This document shows positions 3,491 through 52,361 of a stretch of DNA of 64,000 bases, in pieces. The DNA is from Benincasa hispida. Its lineage: Eukaryota; Streptophyta; Magnoliopsida; Cucurbitales; Cucurbitaceae. The position numbers and the translations under genes were made by a program. Numbering within the stretch: position 1 is the first letter of the stretch; the number at the start of each line of letters is the position of its first letter. The stretch lies in assembly GCF_009727055.1 (NCBI RefSeq), contig NC_052356.1, forward strand, positions 6,051,629 through 6,115,628, written 5' to 3'. The notes beneath the pieces are model-generated. The model ran no database searches, was not told the origin of the DNA, and worked only from the letters and a program-made list of their open reading frames with translations.

Positions 3491-3949
3491 ACTATTCGAT
3501 CTCCTATTCCCATCATTATTGTACTAAAAAAAGTGTATTATTTTATAAACTAGTATTTTCTTTAATCATTATATTTTGTTAACATGAACATTGATGTTTC
3601 TTAATTTAATATTATTTTATTTGTTCATTTTAAAGAAAAAAGAACGTGCATTTCACGTTTACACTCTAACGTTGAGGTCGATAGAGCATTATGTCAATTG
3701 AGATACGCTCATTTTGACCACTTTTACCTATTTTAATTGAGGAAAGGTTTCTCAAAAAAAAAAAAAAAAAAAAAAAAGTTAGGAAACCCAACCCGAAAAG
3801 AGAAGAGTGCAACTCGGATCCCTCCCACCAAGTGGCGACAATCTCAGAGCTGGGCTTTCACGAAGGTCTGATCGCGTTCAATTTCCTTCTCTTTGATCAG
3901 CAAAGCTAAAGTTTTCAATCGGAAAACGATTCAATTTCTATTCACAAAC
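3491..3949 (+). promoter_or_regulatory. Upstream region and probable 5' leader of MON1
   Basis: This is the short space between the copia 3' LTR and the MON1 start codon. A run of more than 20 A residues lies at about 3752-3777. Downstream of it, 3778-3949 is less AT-rich and free of ATG in the MON1 frame, as expected for a 5' untranslated leader. I see no unambiguous TATA box placed well for a transcription start. The promoter must lie within, or extend into, transposon-derived sequence, since the nearest retroelement ends only about 460 bp from the start codon. Confidence 0.45.
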
Positions 3950-6900
3950 ATGTCTTCTGGGTTGAGTTCACTATCATCCAGTGATGAACTCGACAATTTC
4001 AACCCTAGAACATCATCCGCTACGCCACCTAAACCTCTCGAAGAAGAATTGGCGTCTCTAGCATTGACCTTACCACATCCCCACCGGCTCTCCGACCAAG
4101 AGGATGTTAATGGCGTCTCAGATGGATCCGAGGGCGACAGCACTAGGTTTGAAATTCAACGGAGTGACGAGGAAACGGGGGTCGGCGTAGTTTGTGAAGC
4201 GAATTCGGCTTCGGTGGTTGAGGGAGCGACGGGGGGTTCTGATGGTGCTGCTGGGGTTGTGTGGGGGAGGACGAATTCGGAGATTGAGGTGGATAGACCT
4301 GCCAGTCCTAGCAGCAGTGGGTATGCAGGTGAAAGAGGAAGCAGCAGTGCTAGTAGCGGGAGGTCGGAGATGGATGGAGTTGCTGAGGATGAGATACAAG
4401 AACTGAGAGATGACGCTTCTGTTGGTGAGAATTCGAAATCTGTACCTTCGTGGGTTCCTGGAAAGCGGCATGGTGATGAGGTAATGTAATTTGGCAACTT
4501 GTTGAAGACTGTTTGATTGAAGAATTTTGAACTCCATGCCTCTCATTGTCTGTAGAGTAGATCATGAACGAATATTGATGTTTGTGCCTTCCTTGGTATC
4601 TGTTTCCGTTATATGTTTGGTTAGAAGGGACATTGTCTCTGAATCTTTTGAGGAGGGTGGGCTGGATTTAAGGAAATTTGAGACTTAGAAATTTGGTACT
4701 TCTAGCTACATGGCTATGGTGGTTTCCTCTATAATTGAATACTTTCTTGTTAGGTTATAGTGAGAAAATATGGGTGATATTATGTTGGGTGGGTCTTGGC
4801 CTAGTCAAGTGTAGATCATTTTTGTCCTAGTCAAGTGCCCTTCATTTTCATATGTTTTTCCACTATTCCCTTGCATTGGAAGGTATAAACCAAGGTTAAA
4901 AATTTGGAGGATTAACATGACTTTACCCAAAGGTCTTCCTCGCTAATGTTAGAGGCTCTTGGTAGTGCTTTTTGTGAAAATGTGTTTTAAGAAGATTTAA
5001 ACCACGTGCTGTGCAGCAGTAGTATTGTAGTAGTTAGTTTGCAATTTTGATTTGGGAATTGGGATAGCCTAAAATGTAGCAGATGATGTTGTGTTTCTTC
5101 ATCTGCCATTTCAGGATAAGAGAAGAATGCTCTGTCATGTTACTTTTATTTGGGGATCCTTTAGCTTGCGAGAAACAAGAAAATATTCAGAAGGTTTGAG
5201 AGATCTTTGGGTAGGTGTTGTTCCAATTCACTTTGTAATCTTTGGTAGTCTTTGTTTTTCTTATGTTGGCTCCTTTTCATTGTGGGCTTCCTTTGTCTGG
5301 TATTTTTTTCCTCGTTCTTTTATTCATTTCACTGGGTGTTTGTTTTCTCAATAAAGAAAGGGAAAAGCCACTTTAAGTCTATTTGCAAAGATTTTGAATG
5401 GGTTGGTGCCTTTGGTGGTCAAGTGTATAGCTGAAAGAATTCTATGAAAAAAAAAAAAAAGTGTATAGCCGATAGAAAGTCTCTTACCTCCTTTGCATCC
5501 ATTTTCTCTGATATATGGGTTAATAAGGTTTCATTTACAATAGCATAAAATGATTCCTTTCTCACTAAAAATCTTCCTTTCTCACTAAAAATCATGGAGC
5601 TTCATCATGATATCATTTCATGGCATGCTAGTTTCTTTGCTATCTTGAGGGGAATAGGGCTTGAGAGGAATAAACACCAATTAAAACCAACAATCATAAT
5701 TGCCACAATAACAATGAATGCAAAAATTGTCTTGAACCGATTGACAACAGATTGATGGCCTGTCAGAATGGTGTGGTGGATGCTGGCAGACTGTCAAAGC
5801 TATTCGACTGTTGCAGCATGCCAGCAATTGACGAGCAGATGGATGAGTCATGAGGCGCAATGTTACAATGTGGTTGGTTGGTGACGGTCGAAAGAGACAA
5901 AAACGATGAGCTCCTGGATCTGAATCGATTTGTGTTAGAAATGGTGGTGTACAAAGACAGCAACAATGGAGACTAGAATGGAGGCAACTAACGGCTAGGG
6001 TTAGAATGAAAGAAAAAGTAGGTGGGAGGTCCAAACGAAAAAGACTTGCAGGGAGAGCTAGCTGAAATAGAGTACTGACTGACAGGGAGTGGCAGGAAGC
6101 AGTGGTTGAAGATGGAACGGTGTGGCGGTCGGAGGCAGCTGTGGTGGCTTGAGGCTGGTTGGAGGTGGCTAGGGTTTTAGAAGAGAGAGGGCCGAGGAGG
6201 GTCGGGGAAAGAAAGAAAGAAAGGGTCGGATTTTTTATTATTTGACAAACTAACAATGACCTCCTAACGTCTTAAGTTTAATGGTATTTTTCTGCAACAT
6301 CAAACAACACCAGTCAATTAACTTCAATTTAATAAGAGGAAAAGGCAACTTGCCTGAGGAGCCACAATCTGGGTTTTCAGTAAAATGATGATTGCAAAAA
6401 TTCCTGGTCTCTCTCTACCCTGCCTTTAAGTTGTTACAGGCTAAGGTTCTTACGTCAGAGTGCTGTTTCCAAATCAGACCCAAACACTTCCTCTATTTCA
6501 CACTCAGTTAGATTTCTTCATTAATCGTTTAAGGAGGGATCAGGGATCAAGTTCTCCTTTCACATTGGTCAGCCCGGTCTAGGAAATATTCAGGTAAAGA
6601 TCCTTGTGGAATAATATGGGGGAAATCCTCATTTTCTTGTACTAAGGTTTTACTATTGTCCTAAACAGCAACAACCCCAACGAGTATGTATCATCAGACT
6701 CAAAATTTCAGTGTTGTATTTTGTGGGTGATGGGTAAATTGATTAGTTATTTCACTTCTGCGTGCTCTGTTATAATTATCATTATCTTCTTTTTTGTTTT
6801 TGTTTTTTTGGTTGACTTACACATGTTGCTATGGTTTCAGACACTCATTTGGATCTGTTCCCTTGTAGACTCTACATAACTACCTGTTTGAACGTAACTT

Positions 6901-9900: not shown

Positions 9901-12900
9901 TCTCCATATAAAATGTATGTATGACTATTCTTATCATCGAGTATGGCTGGTTGTACTTTTTGATATCATGTTTCAGTGAGGGGCAGTGGAATTTCATTTT
10001 GGAATGTATGATTTTTTTCCCCCTTATTTCTAATTGATTGGTCCAACTTCAGGAACCCTGCCACTTTTCTTCATGCATACACTTGTCTTCCTCTTGCTTA
10101 TGGTACAAGACAAGCTGCAGGTGCAATATTACAAGATGTTGCTGATTCAGGCATTCTTTTTGCAATTTTAATGTGCAAACATAAGGTGAACTTTCATCTT
10201 CTTGGCCCCCTTCCTGCCCTTTGGCTCCATGTAGAATATATAAGATTTGGATTGTGATTGCAGGTTATCAGTCTTGTTGGTGCTCAAAAAGCTTCTCTTC
10301 ATCCTGATGACATGTTATTACTTGCCAACTTTGTGATGTCGACAGAATCCTTTAGGTAAGTTTCAAATTTTAGGTTATATTATTCTGCTTCATTTAGAAA
10401 ACAACCAAATTTTGCTTCCAACGTAAGCTCAATAAATTAACTTCGGCACAAGTGTGGTAAGTCTACTGATTTTATTATTTTCTGGTACAATGTACAGTCA
10501 GGGTGGTGTCACAGTTAAAGAAAATTATTCCATAACTTGCTCTTATCCATGATCCTTCAGGATGATTGGTGTTTTTGTATTTTGCTTCTGTTTCTGGAGG
10601 GGGAGCCGTCTTCTCTTGGCTCTTAGGATGTCCTTATTTTCCTTTTGTTCAATTCATCATTTCAGGTTTCTTATAAGAAAAGGAAAAAAAGAACCTCGTG
10701 TCTTTATGAACTCTTAGACACATGGATTTTTTTCTTTTTCTTTCTTGGGTAATTACGGTCTTGCTCAAATCCTCCACAATTGGGAGGCCTTGATGCTTTA
10801 GTTCTGTAGGGGGAGGGGCCTCTTGCCTCTCTGCACCTTGGCTGTTCTAATTGTGATACGGTCCTGTTTCTTATATAAAAAAGTTGTAGTCGTAATGTTC
10901 TGTCCTTATTTCTTTGGTGCCTTTGGATACCTTTGCTACTCCATGTGAGAGATTGTAAAATGTTTCTTACACGCATGTTTGCTTTATGTGCTGATATCTG
11001 TCTGTGAATATACATGCACATATTCACATAATAGTTTAATCATGATTGTAGTTTCCTCTTATCTTATAGAAGATTTAAGCTATTTTCATTGCTACGAGTT
11101 ATTCATTTGATTTAAGAGGCAACGTTGATGTCTTCTTGAAATTCCAAATAGGTTTCTTCACCATCTTCTATTTTCTGTTTTGTGTTTTACATTTCATTCC
11201 CCTGTTTGTCGAGATTCACTCTTTTTACAACTGCACATTAGGTTTTTCTGATATGTAAATGTCATTGACTAAATGAGCGGTGGGTGCTTTAGATATCTTC
11301 AATTTGATTGACGTGGATCATCTTAAAAATTGACTCGCCTTATCAATAAACAAGTGGGTACCTGTTCATTTTATCTTCTCTCCCTTTTAATGCAGGACAT
11401 CCGAGTCTTTCTCTCCAATATGCCTTCCAAGATACAATCCTATGGCGTTTTTGTATGCATATGTTCATTATTTCGATGTAAGTGAGACTAATACTTTGTT
11501 TTGTTTTTTTTTTGTTTCTTTTAAAAGTGAGTCTAATACTTCAAATTTTATTGGGTAAAATACTTGGGGTAGGATTTAAACTTAGTTTCTATGTGGTCCC
11601 TGACTTTCCAGCTAACACTTGTTCCTTGAGACATGAACTTAGTTTCTATTTGGTCATTGATGTTTCAAGATCGACAAGTTTGGTTATTGCAATTTAAATT
11701 TGATTTCTAATTTTTCCTTGAAGTTTGGCCAAAATGAGGGAGAAATGTTCTCATGAAAGTTTTGTGATGCAAGTGTGGGGGTATTTTATAACTGCATTAG
11801 TGATGAAGAAGAGGGCATATCTAGACTAGAGAGTGAATAGGAATCTCTTCTGTGGATGAGAAGTAAATTCTGGCTGTAGTCAGTCTGAGGTAGGGAGAGA
11901 GGAACTTTCTCTCAACTTCTCTTAGGCTTGTACTTTTTTGGAACTTTTTGAATGAAGTGGAATCGATACTCAAGACCTAATTAGTGTAAGATTTTTACTT
12001 TTCAATTTAGTATCAGCAACACCCCTACCATGTTTTTTTTTCCACCCTTATTTAATATTAGTAGTCTAGATTAGTGTCCAATTCCTTACCTCGGTAAACT
12101 GTTGTGATTTGGAAGAATGCAAGTATTGTGATATTCTTCATCGATTGAGCTTTGTAATTTAATTGGTTTTATAGTGGCTATAAGTAATTGTGATGTTCTA
12201 TATATTATCCGCACTGCATATTGACTGAATAAACGTCTTATGGCAGGTTAACACTTACTTGATGCTCCTTACGACTAATTCAGATTCATTTTATCACTTA
12301 AAGGAATGCAGGTGAAATAGATGTCATATATCATTACTATTAGAGTGTCTTTTGGCTGTCAACTAAGGAAAAAATGGAACATGTTTTTACCAACCATAAT
12401 GTTTTTGTTTTCTTTACACCATGGATGCCCTGTCCTGCCAACCCACCTGACATGCTTTTAAAAATTCAGGTCGGCTACATAAATTGCATTTAAGTTTGAG
12501 GAAATTACTTTATTCCTATCAAGCAAAAATTTTTCTGACCACCCTCTTTATCATGTATTTTATTTAGGATGATTCACTGTATAAGATGTCATGATTAAGA
12601 AGCATACTGAAGCAACATAGAATGACATTAAAATTTTTGTCAAGAGTTAGGCTGATGACAACCTCATTGTGCCTTTATGATTATTTTAAACCTCAAACCA
12701 ATTACACACTGCAATTTTTCTTGTTATTCAAAAACATACGTGGGTGCTTACTCAATAATTGATAGTTGATACTTTTTTTCCATCTTTGCATGGTCTGGAA
12801 AATGGTCGACATCAAAGGATTCGTATTGAGACTGTCCTTTTGAAGTCAAATGTTCTTAGCGAAGTTCAGAGATCCATGTTAGATGGTGGGATGCATGTTG

Positions 12901-15900
12901 AAGATGTGCCTGTCGATTCTTTACCTCGTTATAGAACTATATCTCCTCATTTGGGCCAACAAAGAGCTCCATCAGAATTTCCTGAAAGATTCAAGGAATC
13001 TTATGCTGGGATGGGTGGTCCTGGTGGACTGTGGCATTTCATTTACCGTAGTATATATCTGGATCAGTATGTATCTTCTGAATTTTCATCTCCAATTAGC
13101 AGCCGTCAACAACAGAAGAGGTATTTGTGGCAAATTTCTAATCTCATACATAACGCTTTGATAATTTTTTTAAGCCCTCCTTATTTTTTTTGAAAAGGAA
13201 ACAGCCTTTATTAATCAATAAAAATAGTACAAGAGATGAGTACTTTGATAATAAAGGCGAATACAAAGAACCAAACAAGAAACCAAAGGATCAGTAGGTG
13301 CACCCAGACATCTTAACTAGGTTGACACCCCCATAGCACCCTCATCATGTCCAACATAGAGATAAAGCCATCAAAGGCTAATAGAAGAGCAGTCTAATGA
13401 GACAATACAAGGAAAATCTTGCAACCGGACAATGAAAAGAACTAAGCTACAAAAATCTAAATTACATCAAAGAAGTTAAGACAATTAAGAATACTAATGA
13501 AAGAGAGGCTGCTGTCTCTATCGCCGGTGCTTCGATTAGTCTTCCATTTGAAAGAAAGGCTGCCAATTTAAACTTATGTCTTGCAAGGAATAGGCTTCAA
13601 AGCATAAGCCCTCCTTATTAATCACACATTTTTTAGATAGAATTTATTTCTTTTCATATTTGTTTTGATTTCTTTATTGCAGATTGTACAGAGCATACCA
13701 AAATATTTATGCTTCAATGCATGATAAAGAAATTGGCCCTCACAAAACCCAGTTTAGAAGAGATGAAAACTATGGTACGTTTTTTTGTTTTTCCTTGACA
13801 TTGCCAATTGGATGGACACAATAATTTATTTTTGGATAATTATACCGCACGCACTCTTGATGGTAGGTAAGAGGGTTATTTGTTGATGGTAGGTAAGAGG
13901 GTTATTTGTTTATGTATTTATTTTATTCTTATTAGTAGTATTTTTTTCCTTTCAAATTCATAATTTTCTTGTTATTGGTCATATCTGTTCTTTATTCAAT
14001 GTGTATTTCTTTACATCAGAATCAGACGTTTTGCTTTGACTTTAGTTTATCTTTTATTATTTTTTTGTTTCGATAATCCATCACAATCTATTTCTGTTCT
14101 ATTACATCTAATTCACCCCTCTGGATTTTTCCTATCGTATACCACCAATCCATTGTCATGATAAAGAGTTTGCTTTTTATTGGAGTTTTAGCCTTCCAGA
14201 GCCTAAGTATGCTCCAAGTCGAACACCTTATTAGTGTGCCATAAACATCTGAACAGATATTTATATAATAAGAACCAACACCTTTTAATATGCAGAATCT
14301 TGTATCAGGTGTATGCTTAGGTTTGAATTATGCAATAGTGGAAAGAGTGGCCCGTATCTGTTTCAGTTGCATTAAACCCATTATCTGCTTAGATATAAAG
14401 ATATGTGAACATAATGGCATTCAAGTTTTAATGATGGTTTTTATTGGCAGTTTTACTCTGCTGGGTCACCCAAGATTTTGAGCTTTATGCAGCATTTGAT
14501 CCATTGGCTGATAAGGTATTTCTTTTTTTCGATTTATGAGTATTTCTGGTTGGCTGAAAAAAGTTCTTATATAAAGGCATGGTGACCATGTTCTTACTTG
14601 TAGGTCTTTCATGAATGTTGGTATGGTGAATTTTAATGTAATTTAATTAACTATTTTTCTATTTGACAAGAAAAACACTTTTCATTGATGTTTGAAAAGT
14701 TCCAACTTGAAATTACTGGTGAAACAATATGAACTTTAATTAGATCTCAACTCTTTAATACATGAATGGTATATTTGGATTAAACTCCCAATTTGAAAAA
14801 ATGGTGCTTGGACATGGTTTGGCATGTACGAAATTTGTGGATGAATATTTTGGTCCTACTTCAAAATTTGGATTGAAGGGAACGGAAGAGTCTTGAAAGA
14901 TAGTCTGGAAGACATTATGAGTTATTTGGAGGTTTCTGTTCCATGTATCTAGTTGGCTTTTCTGCTTATAGAGATTCCAATTTGAGTGGTCTCTTTTACA
15001 GATCCAACTTTTTGAGTTTTCTTGTCGTCAATTCTAATTTCATTCTCTCCTCTGAAAAGAAATAAAAATAAAAGGAAACCTCTTGATTGTTTACTCATAG
15101 TAGATACATGGGTTCTGGGTGATATCCATGTTCAATATTAAAGATTTGGATAAGAAGGAAATTGTTATCTTATACCGTTTGTTTTGCATACTTTGTGATG
15201 GTAGCATCTTGTCTTACTTTAATGACTTTTTGCACCTACACATTTGTTTTTGACAAGAAACAAAACAATGAAAACAAAACTTATTGAAGAAATTAAAATA
15301 TAGTAATGCTAAAAAATCAAAATATACAAACTCTGCAAAGGAGTGAAAGAAATACAATTACAACGGAAATGTAAAAGGCATCCCAATTTAAGCATATATC
15401 TTGTAAAGAACAATCAAGTAAAGACTTGGGAAGAGAACACAATGAGGAGGGATTTAATCTGATGGACCCAAAAGATCTATCTATTGAAGATGCCTACTTT
15501 TGAGATTCTCTCCCTTCCCAACCATAATTCTGATCAGAGAGCTTTCAGTGCATTAATCCATATGAATTTATGCTTATTGACTTCTAAAACTGCATTAATC
15601 CATAATAAGTTTGGTTTTGGTGCCAATGAAAGCCCAACCAGTAATTGAAGAACACTACACTTTTATTAGTGACGTGCTACTCTGATTCTGACCCTGCTTG
15701 TATTGGGATGATAAGAGGTTTTTCTGAATCTTCCATAGTAAAGGAAATTTTGGCAAGCTGGTTGTTTCTGCTCGAGATGGACTTTTTAGGATAGAAGTAA
15801 ATAAAAGAGAGTTTGGAGCCTCCTCCTTTGTTTTTTAACTCTTCCTTGCTTCTTCCATTTCCTCTTCTTCATTTTTTTCTTTCTATTACTGGTCCACTGG

Positions 15901-21156: not shown

Positions 21157-24100
21157 ATAATTTAAAATAATGGTTAGCGGAATTGGTGGAGGTGGCAGCT
21201 GTCGGTGGTCGCTCACGATAGTGATGGTTGGAGTTGCGCAACAGGAGTATCGATGGTGATGAGGGTTGAGTGCATTGTTGATGGACATGGGTATAAAATA
21301 TTGTGGCATACAAAATTGACCCTCCAAACATTGATTTGGGTTCATATCTCAACTCATAACAACTCATACCCTCATTTCAAACAGTCCTTAAGTTTGTTCT
21401 ATTTTGCTTCTTACACTTTTAAGATCTTTATTTTAGTATTTAAACTTTTAAGTTCGTAAAAATCTAAAATATCTATTTTATCCTTAAACATTTAAAAACA
21501 ATAATTTTAGTCCTTGTTGTATTACTTTTCTAGTAGGTTCACTTTGCCTTTAAAAAAATATTAATTAAAGTGTAAAATTAAATATGACATTAATTTTAAG
21601 TGAATATAGATATGATTTAGAGTGATCTTGCACATGAAAAAAGTAATTTTAACACTTTCAAAATCACTCACAAACATGCAACTCAATTGCTGTCTAATAT
21701 GTATAGCAACTAAGAAATCTTCGGTTCGATTCCTCCACTTCTATTTTTTTTTTTTTAAAAATCGTTAGTATAGTAAACGATAAATAGAAGAATTTAACAA
21801 TTCATGAGCCTAACCCAATTGATTAAGAATGTGTTTGAAATATATTTTCAAGTATTTAGTTTTTTTAAAAAATATTTTTTTCTTAAGTCAGTCTAAACAG
21901 ATAGTAAGACTTTCTACTATCGACCACAAAGTCGTTCATATATCCACACCATATTTAAAATAAACAAAGAAATAAATAGAGGGACCAAACGTTTGGAGAA
22001 AGATATTTATGTCTACCACTGAACTTTTTAACAACTAGAAGAGAGACAAAATATATATATATANTATATATATTTTTAATAAAAAAGTAAATGTGTAAAA
22101 AGTTTAGTAGTGAGCCATGAAATTTTATTTCATTTTTTTTTTTTTATCATTCCTTAGGAGAGAATTTTCCTTTACTTTTTTTCCTTAACAATTTATCACT
22201 TCTTTTGCTCAATGCTCTTCCTTTTTCTCAAGTTTCTATATAATAAACCATCTAATAATTTCATTACAATATAACATTTATTCCTATTTCATAAATGTTT
22301 TTCCTATCTTTTATCTTTATCTTTTCATTTTATACTAACTTCTCAACTTCTATAATTCCCATGAATAATACTGTACTCTCATTGAACTTTAAATTATTTC
22401 TGGTAAAACAAATTGAAGAATTAAAGGAAATGAAATTCTTACATCTAAGAAGTGTCTTAGAAAAAAAGGAAAAATTATCTTTTTAATTCCCGAGTTTTTG
22501 AAGATTATTATGTTTGATTTTTGAGTTTTCAAAATGTATCTTCTTAGTCCCTAAACTTTTAAGAACACATTTAACATTCTTCAAACCTTGGAGACTAAAA
22601 AGGTAATTTTTATCCAAATAAAATGTTAAAATATCATTTTGATCTTTATAATTTAGGATTTATTCTATTGTTTTTATTTCTTCCTTCAGATTTAATCTCC
22701 ATACTTTTATAAGTAAGTTAAATTTTTCCACGCAATTAGTTAATTAGCTTTGGTTTAAAAAGAAAAATGTTTCTTGTAAGTCTTCCTTCTAAGAAAAATA
22801 ACTCAAAACTAATTTCAAGAATTATTTCTATGATTTACTACATATGATGACTAATTTATAACACTTAAAAAGTACAATGAAAAAAAGGTAGCATACTTTT
22901 GATATTAATCTTAAATTTTTTTAACTCATCTCTTTGAACTTAGAAGAAGAAGAAGAAAAAAGAGTGATATTGTTTTCAAAGTGATATTGGAGGAATAATA
23001 TGAACATGATTTTTTTTTAGTAATTTGTACATCCAAGTAAAATTCTTAATTGACCCTTCACTTTTTAATATTTAATTTTATTTGTGCTACTAAATATAGA
23101 CTTGAATGAAAAGAAAATACATACATTAAAAATAACTTTTTCAATTTTAAAATACTAGTACGAATAATTAAGGTCCCATTTCGTAACCATTTGATTTTTT
23201 TTATAAAAAAATTATGCCTATTTCATCTATAATTCTTACAATGATTTGCATCTTTTTTAAGTACAATAGTTGAATTCTTAGCCAAATTCCAAAAACAAAA
23301 ACAAATTTTTTTTAGTTTACAAAATTTGGTTTGGATTTTTAAACCATTGATGAAAAGTAGATAACAAAGGAAGAAATTTAGAGGTGGAAGTAGTGTCTTT
23401 AAGTTTAATTTTGAAAAAAAAAACGAAAAACAAAATGATTACCAATTAGGGTCTAAAAAAATTAGATTTTCGTTGTATAATCCGAAATAATTAGAAATAA
23501 TTAGAAAGAACCATGAAAACAAATATCCAAGAATATATATATATATATTTAAGAAATAGAACAAGAAAAGAAGAGTGGAAATTAATGGAGCAATAAAGAA
23601 GATGCATATTTAATAGTGGGGCAGTCCATATGTGAAGACTGATAAATGAAACCCAACAAAAGTTGTTCACCTCTATAATGACACTCTCTCAGCATTCAAT
23701 TTGTTTTTGGGTTGACCAAACACATTGCCTTTTCATTTCCTTCCCTTCTTCAGCACAGGATTATCACTCCGCCTTGTGCTTTTGTTTTTATTTTGTTTGG
23801 ATATTGTGAATTAATGGAATCAAAGTCAAACATAAATATAGACACGTGTGACTGATTCGAAGGAATCTTATGTTCGGCGAAGTCTTAGGAATTTTTTTCT
23901 AAAAAATATATTAGTACCAAACAAAAAATACTAGAAAGATTCGTGTTGGTTTGTGAAGTTGGTCTTCTCTCGATCAAACTATTCAAAATAAGTAGGATGA
24001 AGTGCCCTACTCATTGAAATATCGTGGCTATCAGATATCAAGTAAAGATTTTGAATCTTAAGTATGAAATGTTACACCATAATAGGTCATTACTTATTAT

Positions 24101-34928: not shown

Positions 34929-37900
34929 TTACCTGTTTGGGCACATAGTACCCGCCTTGCAACATATAGCATTAAAGAAGAAGCATAGGTGAGTAATTGC
35001 AAGTCTTACATGTTTGGGTAAAATATTATGAATGGCTATCGGTAATAATTGTTGCATAAGAACGTGATGGTCATGCGACTTAAGTCCGTAAAGTTTCAAA
35101 TCTGTGAGCGACACAAAACTTTGAATGTTCAATGAATAGCCTTCAGGTACTTTAATTTCTGATAGTACCTTACAAAAGCTCAATTTCTCAGCTCGTGTTA
35201 ATGTATAACATGCGGGAGATAAAACGAATTTTTTCGCTCCTACTTGAGGGGCTATCTCTGATCTAATATTCAGTTCCACCAAATCTAATCAAGTTTTTAT
35301 TCCATCCTTCGTTTTACCAGGAATATCAAGCAATGTGCCAATAAGATTTGCACATACATTCTTTTCAATGTGCATCACGTCTAAAAAATGTTGCACATCA
35401 AGATACTTCCAGTATTCTAACCCAAAAAGAATAGATTTTTTCTTCCAATAAATTGAAGGGCTATCTCCACTGTTCTTTTCCTTGATAGTTTTCTTACCAA
35501 ATGAATATTGATACTTATTTGTTTCTGCAAGAATTTCTTCCCCGCCTAATGGTTCTGGAGAAAATTCTAATTCTTGTACGTCATTAAAAGCTTTCTTTTG
35601 TTTTCTATATAGATGATGGCAGGGTAGAAACTTGCGATGCCCGAGATATGCCATCTTCTTCCCTTTTAGTAAATAAGTGGATGAAGTATTCTCTCCACAA
35701 ATTGGACATGCATGATATTCTTTAACCGTACAACCACACAAGTTACCATATACAAGAAAATCATTAATGGTCCATAATAAAATAGCTTTAAGCATGAAAT
35801 GTTGTTCTTCATATGCATCATAACATTCTACCCCAACTTTCGAAAGTTTTTTCAAGTCATCTATTAACTGAACTAAATAAACATCTATGTCATTTTTCAG
35901 TTGTTTAGGACCAGATATTAGTGCAGTCAGCATAAAAATTTTCGGTTCATGCACAACCATGGAGGTAGATTGTACGTCACTAACATCACTGGCTAACAAC
36001 TATATCTACTACTAAGATCTCCATGTGGATTTACCTCATTTGTCGAAAGAGTAAGACAAAGATTTCTAGGTTCTAACACAAACTCTAACCACAAATTGTC
36101 TATTTTTTTCCACGATAGGGCATCTTTAGGATGTTTTTATAAACCATCTGTTTCTTTTTTTTTTTTTTTTAGCATGCCACGTCATAAAACTTGGTGTTTC
36201 TTTACTTTGAAACATTCTTTCAAATTTTGGAATTGGGGGAAATACCACATAACTTTTGCTGGGATATTCTCAACCCTTTCCCTTAAATTTTTTGAAGCTT
36301 CCATCTTGACGTACCACAAATGGGGCATACATTTGCATTAGAGACTTCTGTTCTAAACAAGCAACAATCATTTCTACATGCATGAATCTTCTCATACTTC
36401 ATTCAAAGAGTACCCAACATCTTTTTTGCTTCATAAGTAGAAGAACAAATTTCATTAGTACTAGGTAATATGTCATGAATTAATTCCAACAACTCAGTGA
36501 AACTCTTATCGCTCCATCTATTTTAACTTTCAAATTATATAACTTTACCAATGTAGATATTTTGGAAAAAGTTTTACATTTGGGTACAATGGTTTCTTCG
36601 CATCATCTAATAATTCTTCAAAATTATCAGATTTTGCACTAAAATAGTTATTGTATGTAGCCTCAAACATACCAATTGTGTCATTCAACATCAACATCAT
36701 CCTCATTAACTTCGTCTCTTTCACTAGTAGACACATTTTTCTTTGGTTTCTCTTAATCAGTAATGTAACACCCGTATATTTTTTTCTTAGTAATAATGTA
36801 ATTTCAGTAAAATTTTTACTAATTGAGGACATTTTTTGGAATTTTTGGACATTTAAGTGCAATTATTGGAATTTTAAAACATTTTAAGTGGAAATTAATA
36901 TTGGAAATTAATTTCGGAGTTTAGTGTTGGAAATCAAGGGCAAGAATTGTTGTTTAAAAATGGAAAGAAATAGAATGGAAAAAAAAAAATAATAATAACA
37001 ATAAAGGGGAATAGGAAGGAAACAAAATTAAATATATTTTATTTCTTTTTCTTTTCTTTTTCTTCCTTTTCTTTTCCTCTTTTCCTTTCCCCTTCCCTCT
37101 TCTTCCTCACGCAGCCTAGCAGCCACTCACCCCTATCGCCGACCTCGACCAGCAGTCTGATCTCCTCGTCGCTGACCATTCGCGCCGCCCAGATCTGGTT
37201 CCGGTCTCCCATGCTGAGCCACCCGCGCTCGTGTGCTGCCAGTTTTGCTCATGCCAAGCCACATCGTCGGATCTGAAGCCGTGCCATCCGACGCCAGCCG
37301 CCTAGGTCTGCGCCGCCTAGACATACGCACTCCCAGCTAGTCGTGCCATCCCCTCGTCGTTAGCTCGACCTTATCGTCGAACTAGCTTCCATCGCAAATC
37401 TTCTTCGCCACTTGGTTCTGATCGAATCTTGGTTGGAGTAAGATTCTTTGCGTAAGTTTTTGGGTGTTGCTGTTGTTCTTGGTTGTTTTTTGGATCACTT
37501 GTTATGTCTTGGGTTTATAATAGTGTGTATATGTGTCCCATGAAGACTATAGTAGGATAGGACTCAGTTTCCTTCTTGTTTCATGTGTATATGTGTCCCA
37601 TGAGGACTAAAGAAGTTTATATGTTTCATCAGAGGTGGGTATCTAGAGGGCATAGATGCCTAGCCTGACCCTAGTAGTGGGGTTACCTACTGAGTATTTT
37701 ATACTCATTCTTTCTCATGTTGTTGTTCTAGGTAAGGGTAGCGATGGACAAGCGGAATTCGTGATCGAGCCATTGGGACTAGTTTTTACACTTCCGCTCA
37801 TGAGATTTAGAGTTCTTTTCATGTTTCTCTTAACTTTTAGTTTTGATGTTTAAAACTTACTTTTAAGAATCGTTTTTCAGACTTATTTATTATCCTTTAT

Positions 37901-43037: not shown

Positions 43038-43756
43038 ATGTTTATGGAGAATGATACATTGACCTGGATACTAGATTCAGAGGTTGTTAATCATATTTGT
43101 GCTTTCGCTCAGGAAACTTGTTCTTGGAAGCATCTTGTAAAAGGCGAGACAACCTTCAAAGTTGGAACAAAAGAGGTTGTCTCAACTAAAACAATGGGAG
43201 ACTTAAAGTTATTTTTAGAGATAGATTCATTTTACTTGAAAATGTGTTTTATGTTCCTACTATGAGCCATCTCTTGTTTGTTAGAACAGTTGTACAAAGT
43301 ATCTTTTGAAATAAATGAAGTGTTCATTAGTTCAAGAGGTATTCAAATTTGTTCTACAAAACTAGAAAACAACTTATATATGTTAGAATCAACTAAGGTT
43401 AAAGCTATTTTGAATACTGAGATGTTTAAAACATCCAAGACTCATAATAAAAGGCAAAAAGTTTCTCCTAATGCCTATCTTTGACACTTGAGACTTGGAC
43501 CCATTATTCTCAACAGGATCGAGAGATTGGTTAAGAGTGGACTCCTAAATCAATTAGAAGACAACTCTTTACCTCTATATAAATCATGTCTTGAGGGTAA
43601 GATGACCAAAAGATCTTTTATAAGAAAAGGTCTTAGAGCTAAAGTACATTTAGAACTCATGCATTCAGACCTCTGTGGCCCGACGAATATTAAAGCACGA
43701 GGAGGGTATGAATATTTCATCAATTTTGTGGTTATTCAAGGTATGGCTATATTTAC
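43038..43756 (+). pseudogene. Copia protease, pre-integrase and integrase N-terminus (main element)
   Basis: The segment encodes TLTWILDSEVVNHICAFAQE, which is the protease region. The catalytic DSGA signature is altered to DSEV, so the protease would be dead. After a frameshift come LEQLYKVSFEINEVFISSRG and NNLYMLESTKVKAI. The pre-integrase and zinc-binding region follows (HLRLGPIILNRIERLVKSGL, SCLEGKMTKRSF, then HLELMHSDLCGPTNIKARGG and YEYFINF). The normal HLRLGH motif reads HLRLGP. It stops at 43756 where a gypsy element has inserted, and integrase resumes at 46381. Confidence 0.85.
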
Positions 43757-44061
43757 TGACGGCTGGTGGGAAGAATTTCTTCATGAATCGCTCTTCCAAC
43801 TGGTCCCACAAATTAATCGTTTGGCTCTAGAGAATGAGCCCACCTCTTTGCCTCGTCCCTTAGTGTGTACGGGAAGAGGTATAATCTAATTCCCTCAGGA
43901 GTAACGCCAGGAATGGAGAAAATATTGCACATCTCCACGAAGTTGGTCAAATGTGCATGCGGGTCTTCTCCTTGTAGACCTCCGAATTGTCCCGCATTTT
44001 GGATCATTTGTAGCATGACCGGCTTGATCTCAACGTGCATTCTCCTCAACCGTGGGTCTTG

Positions 44062-44278
44062 AAATTCTGGGCGAGAAGTCATATAGATTCGGCACTGCAT
44101 AGTTCCTCATTGGGATATTGCGGTCCTGTCTCTTATACACATCTAGATGTGTATAAGAGACAGGTATTATCGTCCTTATCTCAAAACTTGCATTCTCTCA
44201 ACCATGAGTCTTGAAATTCTGGGCGAGAAGTCATAAATTTGGCGCCACATAGTTCCTCATTGGGATATTGCGGTCGGT
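44062..44278 (+). repeat. Direct duplication flanking the adapter
   Basis: TTGAAATTCTGGGCGAGAAG through TGGGATATTGCGGTC occurs at about 44059-44125 and again at about 44210-44275, with a few differences (GATTCGGCACTGCATAG versus AATTTGGCGCCACATAG). The adapter and a 48-bp unrelated-looking segment lie between. The duplication breaks the gag frame. Confidence 0.85.
44126..44163. other. Tn5 mosaic-end junction (Nextera mate-pair adapter) left in the assembly
   Basis: CTGTCTCTTATACACATCT (44126-44144) is followed without a gap by its exact reverse complement AGATGTGTATAAGAGACAG (44145-44163). Each 19-mer is the hyperactive Tn5 mosaic end used in Nextera libraries. Two in this inverted arrangement make the circularisation junction of a mate-pair library. 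A perfect 38-bp match by chance or descent in a plant gypsy gag is not credible, so this is contaminating adapter. Confidence 0.97.
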
Positions 44279-44544
44279 AGCAAGAAAAACAGGGTCTTGC
44301 GTTGGCTGATTAACCCCTTGATTCCCATTGGGCCTTTCATTGTTAGCTATGTTCCTTCTTCGCCGAATACGATTCTGGCGTGCTCGTGGGCAAAAAGTAC
44401 GTTCAATCTCTGGGTCAGCTTCGAATTCTAGATCAGTCCCAGGACTCATAAACCGTCAGCCTGCTCTCCGCGATAAACAGACAGTACAACATTGATCTGT
44501 CCTGCAAAATACCACAAAAATATTCAACACTAACCGTTACCAAT

Positions 44545-44567
44545 CCCCGTAAATGGCGCCAAAAACT
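44545..44567 (-). other. Primer-binding site of gypsy family B
   Basis: On the minus strand the LTR's terminal CA is followed by AGTTTTTGGCGCCATTTACG and GGGA, close to the TGGCGCCGTTGCCGGGGA-type site of Athila/Tat-like plant gypsy elements. Confidence 0.8.
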
Positions 44568-46380
44568 TGTAATATTTAAAAATTTATATCTCTTTATGAA
44601 CAATGAATGAATGAATCAAGCTCTATGCGCTCAAGTTGCTTTACGATAAAGATATTCCAATACTACGTTCTAAATGTATGCGATGATAATGATATGCGTT
44701 CGTAGTATGCAATGATGTAGTGCATGTCACAAGTTTTCTTATGTTGGAACCAAGTATAATTCCAACGCAAGTTTCTCAGATTGACCTGAGGTCGAACACG
44801 GGGATTGTTGTTGTTTAGATGCGATACTAATGTGGTAAATTCGACCGGTTTAACATAAAGAATAAAGAATTGGTTTGACAGAAATGTAAATTTCGATGAA
44901 AAGTAAATTGCATTGTAAATAAAATGCATTAAAGTAAATTGTGGTAATAAAATAAATGTCTAAACTATTAATGATACAGGGTGAGGACTGGCTGTGAAGT
45001 TGTGCAAGATAATCTAGTGAATGCGGTGGCAAATCTTGTGAATGAATCAGAAAGAGAATGGGTTGAGGGAAAGGACATCGCAAGTTTGTCAATCTTGTTG
45101 AGGACACAACTAAGGTTCTGCTTTCCCTTGGCTTACACCTTTTAGTGATCGGCCGCGTTCCCATATGTCTATGGTGAAACAGGGATGAGCGTAATGAACG
45201 TAAGGTTGTTTCCATCTCTGGAAATACTTCTCGCTTTAGTTAACACATTCTTCTAATCTCCTCTCGATAGGTGGAATAACATCTTCACTTCTGCTCTCAC
45301 AAGTGAAGATGCCGTCGAGCATGCTTTAGCTAAACTCAACCGATTTCCTTAACAAGGATTAACTCACTCGCTTAATCCTTCCCCTTTACCCAGGGGATTA
45401 GTGACACATGATGGAGAAAATGGATGATGAATGTGTGGAAAAGGACAGAGAGATGATAATGATTATGATAATGATATTAAATTGTAGAGATTAGCATTTG
45501 ATACAAATCATGAATGAAAGATTAAAGAAAGATGACACAGTAGATGAATGAAAGAATAGAAACAAATACGAAAAGAGTGTCAATGTCTTGACACAGATCC
45601 CAATCGGAGACGTTGTACTTTCCGGCGTGTGGATGAGATGAAGTGGAAAGCTTCCCTCTCAGGCTTGCTTTCCTAGTAGAAGTGACCTCTTGCACAGAGC
45701 TTCTTCTTCGGGAATGGAAAGAATTTCTTGCTCGGAGACTTACCTTTCAGTCTTGTCTCATCGTTCTCCTGGATTTTCTTGTATTGTCTCTTCAGACTAG
45801 CCTGCTTAACAATGAATTTGAGGAAGCTGTTATAGACCTTGGCTCTCTGTATTGGTGTCCCACTTTATAAATTTGATAATTTTTGCCATGGCATAGTGGA
45901 AATGTCCGTTCTGCTCTACAATCAATTTGTCAGAATGTACAATAGAAAAGCTGTACACGTCAGAAGTCCATGCAAATGCGTTGCTCTTCACATCTTCAAT
46001 CGATCGCTGCATGCGGTGTAGTTGTTTTGAATTACCGCATGCGGTGGAAATGCGTTGATCGCTTGAATCCATGATCGATCGTTTCATGTGCTGCAATTGC
46101 GTTGATCTTTTTGTTCTTGATCGATTGCCATATGCTGTGTGGATCCATTGTTCATTTTTTGTCCTCGAGCAATTAACGCATACGGTGACCTATTTCCTGC
46201 AAGACAAAGACTTGGACATTCTATTTCGCCATCTCAATGGGGTTAATAGGTGTATTCATGACACTTTACAATTTTCTTATTTCTTAGCCAATTTCTATAT
46301 TGTCAATGCAATTTTTCCTTCTTTTTACTGCATAATCTAAAGAAAACGATATAAATAACTTGTATTTCTACAAGTTATCA
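44568..46380 (-). mobile_element. Gypsy family B 5' LTR (1.8 kb)
   Basis: The LTR starts TGATAACTTGTAGAAATAC on the minus strand at 46380 and ends in TACA at 44568, next to the primer-binding site. Its first bases contain a short palindrome (ACTTGTAGAAATACAAGT). It aligns with the solo LTR at 55457-56924 along its length, for instance CATCTCTGGAAATACTTCTC here and TATCTCTAGAAATACTTCTT there. The 45960-46190 part has repeated GATCGATCG, GCATGCGGT and GCGTTGATC phrases. No protein is encoded. Confidence 0.8.
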
Positions 46381-48205
46381 TTTACCTAATGCATCACAAG
46401 TCTGAAACACTTGAAAAGTTTAAGGAGTATAAGCCAGAGGTTGAGAACCTATTAGGTAAAACAATTAAAACACGTTGATCAGATCGAGGTGAAGACTGTA
46501 TGACTTAAGATTCCGAAACTATTTGACAGAACATGGAATCCAATCCTAGCTTACTGCACCTGGTACACCCTAGCAGAATGGTGTATCGAAAAGGAGAAAT
46601 AGAATCCTGTTAGACATGGTTTGTTCAATGACGAGCTCTGCTCAGTTGCCTAATTCATTTTAGTGATATATAGTAGAGACTGCAGTATACATTTTGAACA
46701 TGATTCCTTCAAAAAGTGTTTCTGAAACACCTTATGAGTTATGGAAAGGGCGTAAAGGTAGTTTACATCACTTCAAGATTTGGGGATGCCCGACGCATGT
46801 GTTAGTGCAAAACCCAAAAAAGTTGGAACATCGTTAAAATTATGCCTATTTGTAGGATACCTCATAGAGACGAAAGGTGGTCAGTTTTATGGTCCTCAAG
46901 ATAACAAAGTGTTTGTATCGAAAAATACTACATTCTTAGAGGAAGACCACATGAGAGATCATCAACCTCACAGTAAACTAGTATTGAATGAAATTTTCAA
47001 AGACGCTATAAATAAATCAACAAGAGTTGTTGATCAGGTAGGTCCTTCAACAAGAGTTGTTAATGGAACTGGTCAGTCACATCCTTCTCAAGAGTTGAGA
47101 GTGCCTAGATGTAGTGGGACGGTTGTTCAACAGTCAGACTGGTACATGGATTTAACAGAAACTCATGTCGTCATACCTAATGATGGCATTGAGGATCCAT
47201 TGACCTATAATCAGGCAATGAATGAAATAGATAGAGAGCAGTGGATCAAAGCCATGGATCTCGACATGGAGTCTATGTACTTCAATTTCGTCTGAGAACC
47301 TGTAGATCAGCCAAATGGCGTAAAACCTATTGGTTGTAAATGGATCTACAAGAGGAAACGAGACTAAGCAGGTAAGGTACAGACCTTTAAAGCTCGATTG
47401 GTGGTGAAAGATTATACCTAAAGAGTGGGGGTAGACTGTGAAGAAACATTCTCTCCTATTGCCATGCTAAAGTCGACTAGAATACTCTTGTCTATAACCA
47501 CTTTTTATTATTATGAGAATTGGAAAGTAGATGTCAGGACAACCATTTTGAATGGAAATCTTGAAGAGACTATCTATATGGCTCAACCAGAGGGGTTCAT
47601 TAAATAGGGTCAAAAGTAAAATGTTTGTAAGCTAAAACGATTCATGGGTTAAAACAAGCGTCAAGATCCTATAATATAAGATTTGACAATGCAATCAAAT
47701 CTTATAGCTTTGAACAAAATGTTAACGAAACTTGTGTACACAAGAAGATTGTCAACAAAACTGTAGCATTCTTAGTGTTGTATGTTGATGACATCCTACT
47801 CATTGGGAATGATGTAGGATACCTGTCTGACGTTAAGCTATGGCTAGCAACGCAATTCCAAATGAAAGATTTAGGAGAGGCTTAGTATATTCTAGGAATC
47901 CAAATTGTTCGGAACTGCAAGAACAAAACGTTAGCCTTGTCTCAAACATCTTATATAGACAAGTTGTTGTCTAGATATAAGATGCAAAATTCCAAGAGGA
48001 GCTTTCAGGCATGGAATTCATCTGTCAAAGGAACAGTACCCTAAGACACCTTAAGAAGTTGAGGACATGAAACTTATTCCCTATGCATCAACAGTTGGTA
48101 GTCTGGTGTATGCTATATTGTGTACATGACCTGACATATGCTATGCAGTAGGATTCATCGGTAGGTTTAGTCCAATTAGAATATGATCATTGGGCTGGCG
48201 TTAAA
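46381..48205 (+). pseudogene. Copia integrase and reverse transcriptase (main element)
   Basis: Integrase resumes after the gypsy insertion with HHKSETLEKFKEYKPEVENL and continues through NPKKVGTSLKLCLFVGYLIE, a VFVSKNTTFLEED block and a linker containing QELRVPRCSGTVV. The reverse transcriptase follows: DPLTYNQAMNEIDREQWIKA, KPIGCKWIYKRKR, VDCEETFSPIAMLKSTRILL, NGNLEETIYMAQPEGFI, then FLVLYVDDILLIGNDVG with the catalytic YVDD at 47781-47792. Several stops and frameshifts interrupt it (for example near 47293 and 47605). It is cut at 48205 by a solo LTR and continues at 50210. Confidence 0.9.
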
Positions 48206-50421: not shown

Positions 50422-51853
50422 GCTGAAAAGAATCTAAAAAGTGCTTTTATTACCTTTAAATTTAGAGCTGCTATTGCTAGTTTTTGTTTGGTTTGATGTG
50501 GTTTATTGAATGATTTCAGGAAACCAAGCATAAGGAGCAGTTTGTGCGAAAAATATAAAAAAAACCCAAGGCAAAACTCCAATTTTGAGTAATTACGGGT
50601 GAACTATGGAAGTCGTAAGAAATCAAGGACCAAAGATCAAGAAAAGAGGCAAATTTGGAAAGCAATTCGGAGTAGCCAGCGTTGGCCGAGCGTTGCAACG
50701 CTTCTCCTTGACGCTGCAGACCCGAGACCAATTGGAAACAGGGAAGCGTCGCAATGCTACTTATAGTGTTGCGACGCTTCAAACTTTATGCGCGGCTGGC
50801 ATGATGCCAGCATTGCAAAGCTGGTTTGTAGCGTTGCAACATTGCGAGCGTATTATAGATAGAACGTTGCACCGCCAAGTCAAAAAAAGGGAGAAAAAGA
50901 GGAGGTAGAGCCGACTTTGGGTGATTTTAGTCCGTACAAGAGCCAAAGTAGAGCAATTCTAATAGCTTTTGGTGAAATACTCAAGATTTCAATTGAGAGT
51001 TGATCCGAGATCATCTCTGGGCCGATCGTGATGAGAAGATTGATCGTGATTGTGTTGTTTTGTTGAAGAACAACACGAGATTCATGGCGAGAGTCAAAGA
51101 GATCGTGATTGGGATTTAGACCTATTGAGGGAAGATCGTTCTTCTACGTTTAATTTACTTTTTGCTTTAATGATTGATTATTTATGGAATATTGTTAACA
51201 GAATCATGTGTGGCTAAACTCTTTTATTCTAGGGTGTTTGTGGATTTTAGGGGATGTTACTTTGAATATTGAATTTAAAGTTGAATTATTTTGCATGGAT
51301 TTCTAAATTATTTTTGTTGAATGCTTTTGATAACTAGCCATTAATTTAATGAACCTAAGTTAATTAGATTTCTCGAGAGAGAGTTTAATTTGCTGGACCC
51401 AATAATTTATATTGTTATTCAAAATTGCATGAGAATGAATTTAGAATAATAAGGGGTGAGATTGAAAGATCTTAATGTCGTAACTATTCAAGCGATAGAA
51501 GAGATTCGGATCGATGGGTAGTTATTAGGAGAGTTTGAGCTGGAGAGAGGATTTTCTGATTTTAGAACTTCTAGCCTCAATCTATCAATTTCAATCAATT
51601 ACATGTCATATTCACTATATTTCCTAAATGAAACAACACTCTGGAATTGTTTTGCTCTAGATTTGTTCTTGTGTGTGATTGAGTTTTCGTTAGTCATAGT
51701 TATAGATAAAATTCATCTTTTGGGTTGCCTGAATAAAATTGACAAAGAATTGTGATAGCTAAGTTTAGGAAAATTTTGCTCACACTGGTCCCTGAGGATG
51801 ATACCCTATTTGGGATTTATTACTTCAATTGCGTATGCTTGCGCACCATATCA
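50422..51853 (+). mobile_element. Ty3/gypsy LTR (family A, copy 2)
   Basis: The right end CA at 51852-51853 is followed by AGTTTTTGACGTCATTGCTA, a degraded family A primer-binding site. The LTR carries GC-richer repeats of GTTGCGACGCT/GCGTTGCAACG type (50690-50860) and the late phrase GTCCCTGAGGATGATACCC. The left end is uncertain (somewhere between 50422 and about 50500). It shares its order of landmarks with the copies at 25267 and 55090. Confidence 0.65.
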
Positions 51854-51989
51854 AGTTTTTGACGTCATTGCTAGGGAGTTACAAGAAATTTTTTTCCCAA
51901 ACTTAATATTGCTAAAAACTGAGTTAATCTTAATTTGGGTTTTTTTTGTTTTTGTTTTATTTTGTAGCTTCAGTAGACTTAACTTCGAT

Positions 51990-52361
51990 GCCATGGGAGA
52001 TCAAGGGGAAGCTGATAGAGCCATTAGAGAGTATTTCCAACTAGCCATCCCTACGACCCAGACGAGCATTGTAGAGGCCCCAGTTAACACTAATAATTTT
52101 GAATTGAAACATGGTTTAATTCAAATGACACGGGACCTTGCATTCAGAGGAACTCCACATGAAGACTCGGACAAGCATATCTGCTCTTTCCTAGAAATTA
52201 GCGGAACGATAAAAATAAATGGAGTCCCTTCTGATACCATTAGACTGAGATTGTTCCCTTTTTCTGTGCAAGACAAGGCGAAAGATTGGTTGGAGTCACT
52301 TGCAATGGGAAGATTGGTTGGAATCACTTGCAATGGGAAGCATAACCACATGGGATGATTT
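51990..52361 (+). pseudogene. Gypsy family A gag (copy 2), frameshifted and truncated
   Basis: From ATG 51991 the peptide reads MGDQGEADRAIREYFQLAIP, then NNFELKHGLIQMTRDLAFRG, HEDSDKHICSFLEISGTIKI and NGVPSDTIRLRLFPFSVQDK AKDWLESL, the retrotransposon gag core. A 28-bp tandem duplication (52283-52310 and 52311-52338) shifts the frame, so the usual SITTWDDLE is read out of frame. The gag ends at about 52361 where copia LTR debris begins. Confidence 0.85.
52283..52338 (+). repeat. 28-bp tandem duplication within gag
   Basis: AGATTGGTTGGAGTCACTTG begins the first copy and AGATTGGTTGGAATCACTTG the second, with one difference over 28 bp. Since 28 is not a multiple of three it causes the gag frameshift. 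Confidence 0.92.

Follow-up and report, generated by a model that had tools for sequence, protein, structure and literature searches.

We conclude that the 38 bp at positions 44126-44163 of the window (the whole 64-kb stretch of Benincasa hispida DNA analysed here) are almost certainly the circularisation (junction) adapter of a mate-pair sequencing library, i.e. an assembly artefact and not a biological feature. The initial annotation had read the site as a mate-pair junction adapter embedded in the assembly, and this is confirmed by the exact 38-mer, by its 9,991 copies assembly-wide and by a Tn5 target footprint beside the copies that were sampled. The adapter is made up of two 19-bp Tn5 mosaic ends, which abut with 0 nt between them and form an exact inverted pair:

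44126..44144, plus strand: Tn5 19-bp mosaic end, first adapter arm (synthetic), by sequence match
44145..44163, minus strand: Tn5 19-bp mosaic end, second adapter arm, abutting the first, by sequence match

The letters of 44126-44144 are CTGTCTCTTATACACATCT, and the exact reverse complement of CTGTCTCTTATACACATCT occupies 44145-44163. The 19-mer is the engineered hyperactive Tn5 end, and the 38 letters are those of the Nextera junction adapter. Beyond this pair, no further mosaic ends were found in the 64-kb window at up to 3 mismatches, and dinucleotide shuffles of the window (n = 100) gave a mean of 0.02 mosaic-end matches, with two matches in 0/100. We also compared other adapter sequences (several from Illumina, 454, PacBio, Ion, ONT and SOLiD) with the window as 12-mers, and no 12-mer of those tried occurs in it. 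Read-through of an ordinary Nextera paired-end library was rejected: it would leave a single mosaic end running on into the index adapter, and neither of the two Nextera read adapters that we tried shares a 12-mer with the window. The window contains a single N, at 22064, inside an AT repeat.

Screening of the whole assembly (912,946,352 bases in 1,791 contigs) showed that the adapter is abundant and dispersed. The check proposed in the initial annotation, an assembly-wide search for the 19-mer with a count of abutting pairs, returned 21,530 exact mosaic ends (10,766 forward and 10,764 reverse) and 9,991 intact 38-mer junctions; since the 38-mer reads identically on both strands, its forward and reverse counts describe the same sites. 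Intact pairs account for 19,982/21,530 mosaic ends (93%), and control patterns, consisting of the 19-mer and the 38-mer read backwards, each had 0 occurrences in the whole assembly. Eight of 100 mosaic ends listed lay outside an exact pair, the second arm being shortened in seven of these and absent in one. The flanks of the adapter differ among the 46 distinct sites that were read (window included). At one locus (L159, positions 1001-1668, on contig C1 from 2861251), the adapter and an identical 129-nt stretch are repeated four times head to tail, with adapters spaced 167 nt apart.

The exact 38-mer also occurs in other public records, including at least 120 stretches in prokaryote genomes (the majority of them drafts, with many stretches coming from a few assemblies), 7 stretches of viral contigs and 5 of 72,556 plasmid records, and it was found in 0 of 20,395 E. 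coli records. An embedded junction adapter is a known kind of contamination. The plasmid records with an intact 38-bp adapter are NZ_CP032357.1, NZ_MT039157.1, NZ_KY978628.1, NZ_MF589339.1 and NZ_MF918372.1, and many junction adapters, several per contig, are present in e.g. Enterococcus sp. 10A9_DIV0425, Ideonella sp. MAG2 and Collinsella ihumii GD8.

In the window, the adapter lies inside a degenerate LTR-retrotransposon piece of 2,624 bp, which is itself nested in a degenerate copia polyprotein:

43488..43756, plus strand: left part of a degenerate copia polyprotein (weak match to gag_pre-integrs, 17.4 bits, cut-off 28.4)
43752..43756, no strand: target-site duplication TTTAC, left, from the sequence
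43757..46380, minus strand: inserted LTR-retrotransposon piece with TG...CA ends, holding the adapter, from reading the sequence
start codon at 44449, cut off at 43757, minus strand: degenerate gag, from reading the frame
from 44561, minus strand: putative primer-binding site, from sequence hallmarks
about 46380-44568, minus strand: putative LTR of ~1.8 kb, from sequence hallmarks
46381..46385, no strand: target-site duplication TTTAC, right, from the sequence
46386..47295, plus strand: degenerate copia polyprotein, right part (SH3_retrovirus, 33 bits, cut-off 27, in 46780-47295)

The LTR and primer-binding site are putative assignments from general hallmarks, and the gag, whose reading frame gave no Pfam match, is putatively Ty3/Athila-like. 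The codons of the copia frame stop with TAC at 43756 and pick up at 46386 with CTA ATG CAT CAC AAG. Given a TTTAC at either border and a copia frame that continues at 46386, the two outer borders are read as those of one insertion; the borders were placed by eye, and a 5-base match arises by chance about once per several hundred tries. Only the right end of the nested piece carries a putative LTR and its left end falls inside gag, yet it shows TG...CA ends and a 5-bp duplication; this one-sided structure may reflect a later deletion whose end coincides exactly with the target site, a one-ended insertion of an unusual kind, or further assembly loss. Elsewhere in the window, a 28-nt tandem duplication (96% identical) is found at 52282-52337 within a second, putatively gag-like frame (51798-52358) that had no Pfam match. 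Likely exons at 3893-4489 and 12759-13193, with a weak Fuz_longin_3 match at 12759 that is below the cut-off, belong to a putative MON1-type gene, and a Transposase_21 (tnp2) reading frame with 156 bits occupies 35289-35999 on the minus strand.

On either side of the adapter stands a copy of the same stretch of gag, here called X:

44014..44125, minus strand: left copy of X (start chosen by eye), from alignment to the right copy
44164..44275, minus strand: right copy of X, starting directly behind the adapter, from alignment to the left copy

The two copies are diverged, with 87% identity over 101 columns between 44027-44125 and 44178-44275, and their final 28 nt are identical. The left flank had 39 other matches listed in the assembly, of which the best 14 loci (L193-L206) were cut out for comparison. 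All 14 carry X once per gag copy with no adapter within it (L202 has two separate gag copies, with X once in each), and the homologue of the left flank runs into the homologue of 44276 onward, exactly in 12/14 and with an offset of +1 base in L196 and -29 in L206; the adapter is present elsewhere within the fetched 2.6-3.4 kb at 3/14. Since X is single in every gag copy and free of adapter at 14/14 other loci, approximately 150 bp at this site (38 of adapter and 112 of a second X) are, by comparison with these loci, extra. At least one copy of X probably came from another copy of the element, since the identity is 87% and not the ~100% expected for one locus in an inbred line. A near-identical donor was not found for either X flank, the best being 90% for the left and 87% for the right among 40 candidates scored of 2,712 (left flank) and 2,597 (right flank).

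Over longer distances the arrangement looks right. The flanks of the adapter do not appear to come from unrelated places, as they would in a long-range misjoin, and the kilobase-scale order across the site appears correct because of the TTTAC duplication, the resumed copia codons and the two halves, which are parts of one gag in the proper order and orientation. The initial annotation had held any join across this point to be unreliable; we would narrow this warning to the ~150 bp at the adapter, as the kilobase-scale order looks right.

We compared the window with 45 other junctions of the assembly, all located within the initial 6 Mb of contig C1, with flanks of at least 50 nt and with repeated keys dropped. 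Direct and inverted repeats were scored within 400 nt (E<=1e-3) and were called abutting when within 30 nt of the adapter; the mock sites were drawn from stretches containing no more than 5 N. A direct repeat was present at 18/45 other junctions vs 5/45 mock sites, and direct repeats abutted the adapter on both sides at 16/45 vs 1/45, these being 46-213 nt long and 81.6-100% identical, while abutting inverted repeats were found at 0/45 junctions and 0/45 mock sites. At 27/45 other junctions there was no direct repeat within 400 nt (E<=1e-3), and the route of merging is therefore not uniform. The prokaryote records (mostly drafts) had direct repeats at 42/134 junctions and abutting ones at 24/134 (mock: 2/131 and 0/131), with abutting inverted repeats at 0/134 (mock: 1/131); non-abutting inverted repeats occurred at 6/134 prokaryote and 1/3 viral junctions, and abutting repeats at 0/3 viral junctions. 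The repeat-adapter-repeat layout of the window is thus shared by those 24/134 prokaryote junctions, whose abutting repeats are 94.7-100% identical, in contrast to 87% for the copies of X. Palindrome hopping, in which the adapter serves as a hairpin turn, was discarded as a candidate, since it predicts abutting inverted repeats and there are 0/45 here and 0/134 in the prokaryote records.

If one mate-pair circle of 2 or 8 kb had been retained, sequence to the right of the adapter would be expected to recur 2 or 8 kb to its left. For five repeat-free junctions, in five of 20 left-hand regions, we compared 54-57 nt of the right flank with the 9.9 kb to the left, and recurrence was found at 0/5; nor was it seen in the window.

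The likely source of the assembly is the wax gourd B227 draft, for which PMC6856369 reports mate-pair libraries, five in all, with sizes of 2 and 8 kb. According to that paper, ALLPATHS-LG built the contigs from paired-end reads, the mate pairs served to scaffold them, gaps were filled with PBJelly, and 397 of 2,197 scaffolds were anchored to 12 chromosomes with ALLMAPS. As written there, such a use of the libraries would not in itself add bases from mate pairs to the contigs. In the main text of PMC6856369 the terms 'Nextera', 'adapter', 'adaptor', 'contaminat' and 'trim' all have 0 occurrences, 'adapter', 'contaminat' and 'Nextera' are absent from the main text of another wax gourd paper (PMC9905507), and among the matches listed in our literature search none dealt with adapters in the wax gourd assembly.

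A copy number this high at dispersed sites is also what a genuine genomic element with mosaic-end-like termini would show, and this reading is rejected as having next to no chance of being correct: the 19-mer is an engineered hyperactive end, the identical 38-mer is scattered over records of unrelated taxa (prokaryote genomes, viral contigs and plasmids) and is in none of the E. coli records, and the homologous stretch is free of adapter at all 14 other gag loci. How the adapter was attached to the DNA can be read from the genomic ends beside it, which we scored against the Tn5 target consensus. At 91 adapter-adjacent ends of the assembly (window included), G stands at position 1 in 42/91 and C at position 9 in 35/91, with a background of 18% each, and the consensus score is 4.23, compared with 2.93 in mock ends (p<=1e-4); in the prokaryote records, 274 adapter-adjacent ends score 3.96 vs 2.79 for random letters, and both genomic ends in the window start with G. 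Because of this footprint, a Tn5 tagmentation (Nextera-type) library is favoured. The letters alone are no proof of Nextera, since PMC7357533 describes the identical 38-mer as a ring adapter that carries a biotin label and is attached to sonicated DNA with T4 ligase. Such a ring adapter, ligated to sonicated fragments in place of tagmentation, would also agree with the silence of the PMC6856369 main text on Nextera; we consider it very improbable here, as no Tn5 footprint is expected at sheared ends and one is present. In the procedure of PMC4074385, DNA is tagmented with junction adapters that carry biotin and is then circularised, which puts the adapter at the centre of correctly formed fragments. 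The site resembles this Nextera long mate-pair system in its two abutting inverted mosaic ends and in the footprint at their flanks, and differs from it in that the adapter sits inside an assembly, and not in raw reads, with a diverged direct repeat around it.

For the manner of joining, the main alternative is a single chimeric molecule, in which a very short fragment closed on itself via the adapter, so that one molecule would lead out of X at its end, across the adapter and back into X at its start. It would yield direct and not inverted repeats, as observed, and the four-fold unit of adapter and 129 nt at L159 has the form expected from an assembly-graph loop. At 8 prokaryote junctions, however, repeats of just 14-27 nt abut the adapter, and circles of 14-27 nt are physically implausible; moreover, 13% of the alignment columns differ between the two copies of X in the window. 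PMC6856369 gives sizes of 2 and 8 kb for the libraries of the likely source, and overall we regard a short self-closed fragment as rather unlikely. The abutting direct repeats fit overlapping ends that each ran into an adapter at least as well as they fit one chimeric read.

The junction adapter of a Tn5-tagmented mate-pair library was almost certainly left untrimmed in reads and so carried into the assembly. In the route that we propose for the joining, each side would have been extended, during contig or gap building in this repeat, until it reached the adapter, and the two adapter-capped ends would then have been joined via the adapter and not via the ~100 bp of gag common to both. The outcome would be the retention of the adapter together with a second, paralogous gag stretch, with the surrounding kilobases in the right order. 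We consider the chances of this merging route via adapter-capped overlapping ends to be about even. The more general proposition, that adapters with an abutting direct repeat mark correctly ordered contig ends that overlap by X and were merged via the adapter, and not random misjoins, could with equal probability prove right or wrong; if true, the repeat-adapter-repeat layout flags sites at which the order is correct and X is counted twice. The initial annotation had attributed the join to an untrimmed chimeric mate-pair read. An untrimmed mate-pair adapter in the assembly is upheld, while a single chimeric read goes too far, given that the right-hand 112 nt match only the left copy in the 64 kb and that leftward recurrence was lacking at 5/5 junctions.

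At 38 letters each, the 9,991 copies amount to 379,658 letters, i.e. ~380 kb of synthetic sequence in the assembly, and about a third of the sampled adapters (16/45) have an abutting duplicated stretch. Gene models, repeat counts, indel calls and primers at adapter sites need checking. An open frame crosses the adapter at 44126-44163 on the minus strand and reads VSYTHLDVYKRQ, a possible contaminant peptide that could be added to predicted proteins; a longer string was absent from all 4 papers found in a search for it. The 38 bp are a quality warning for one assembly, from which no biology follows.
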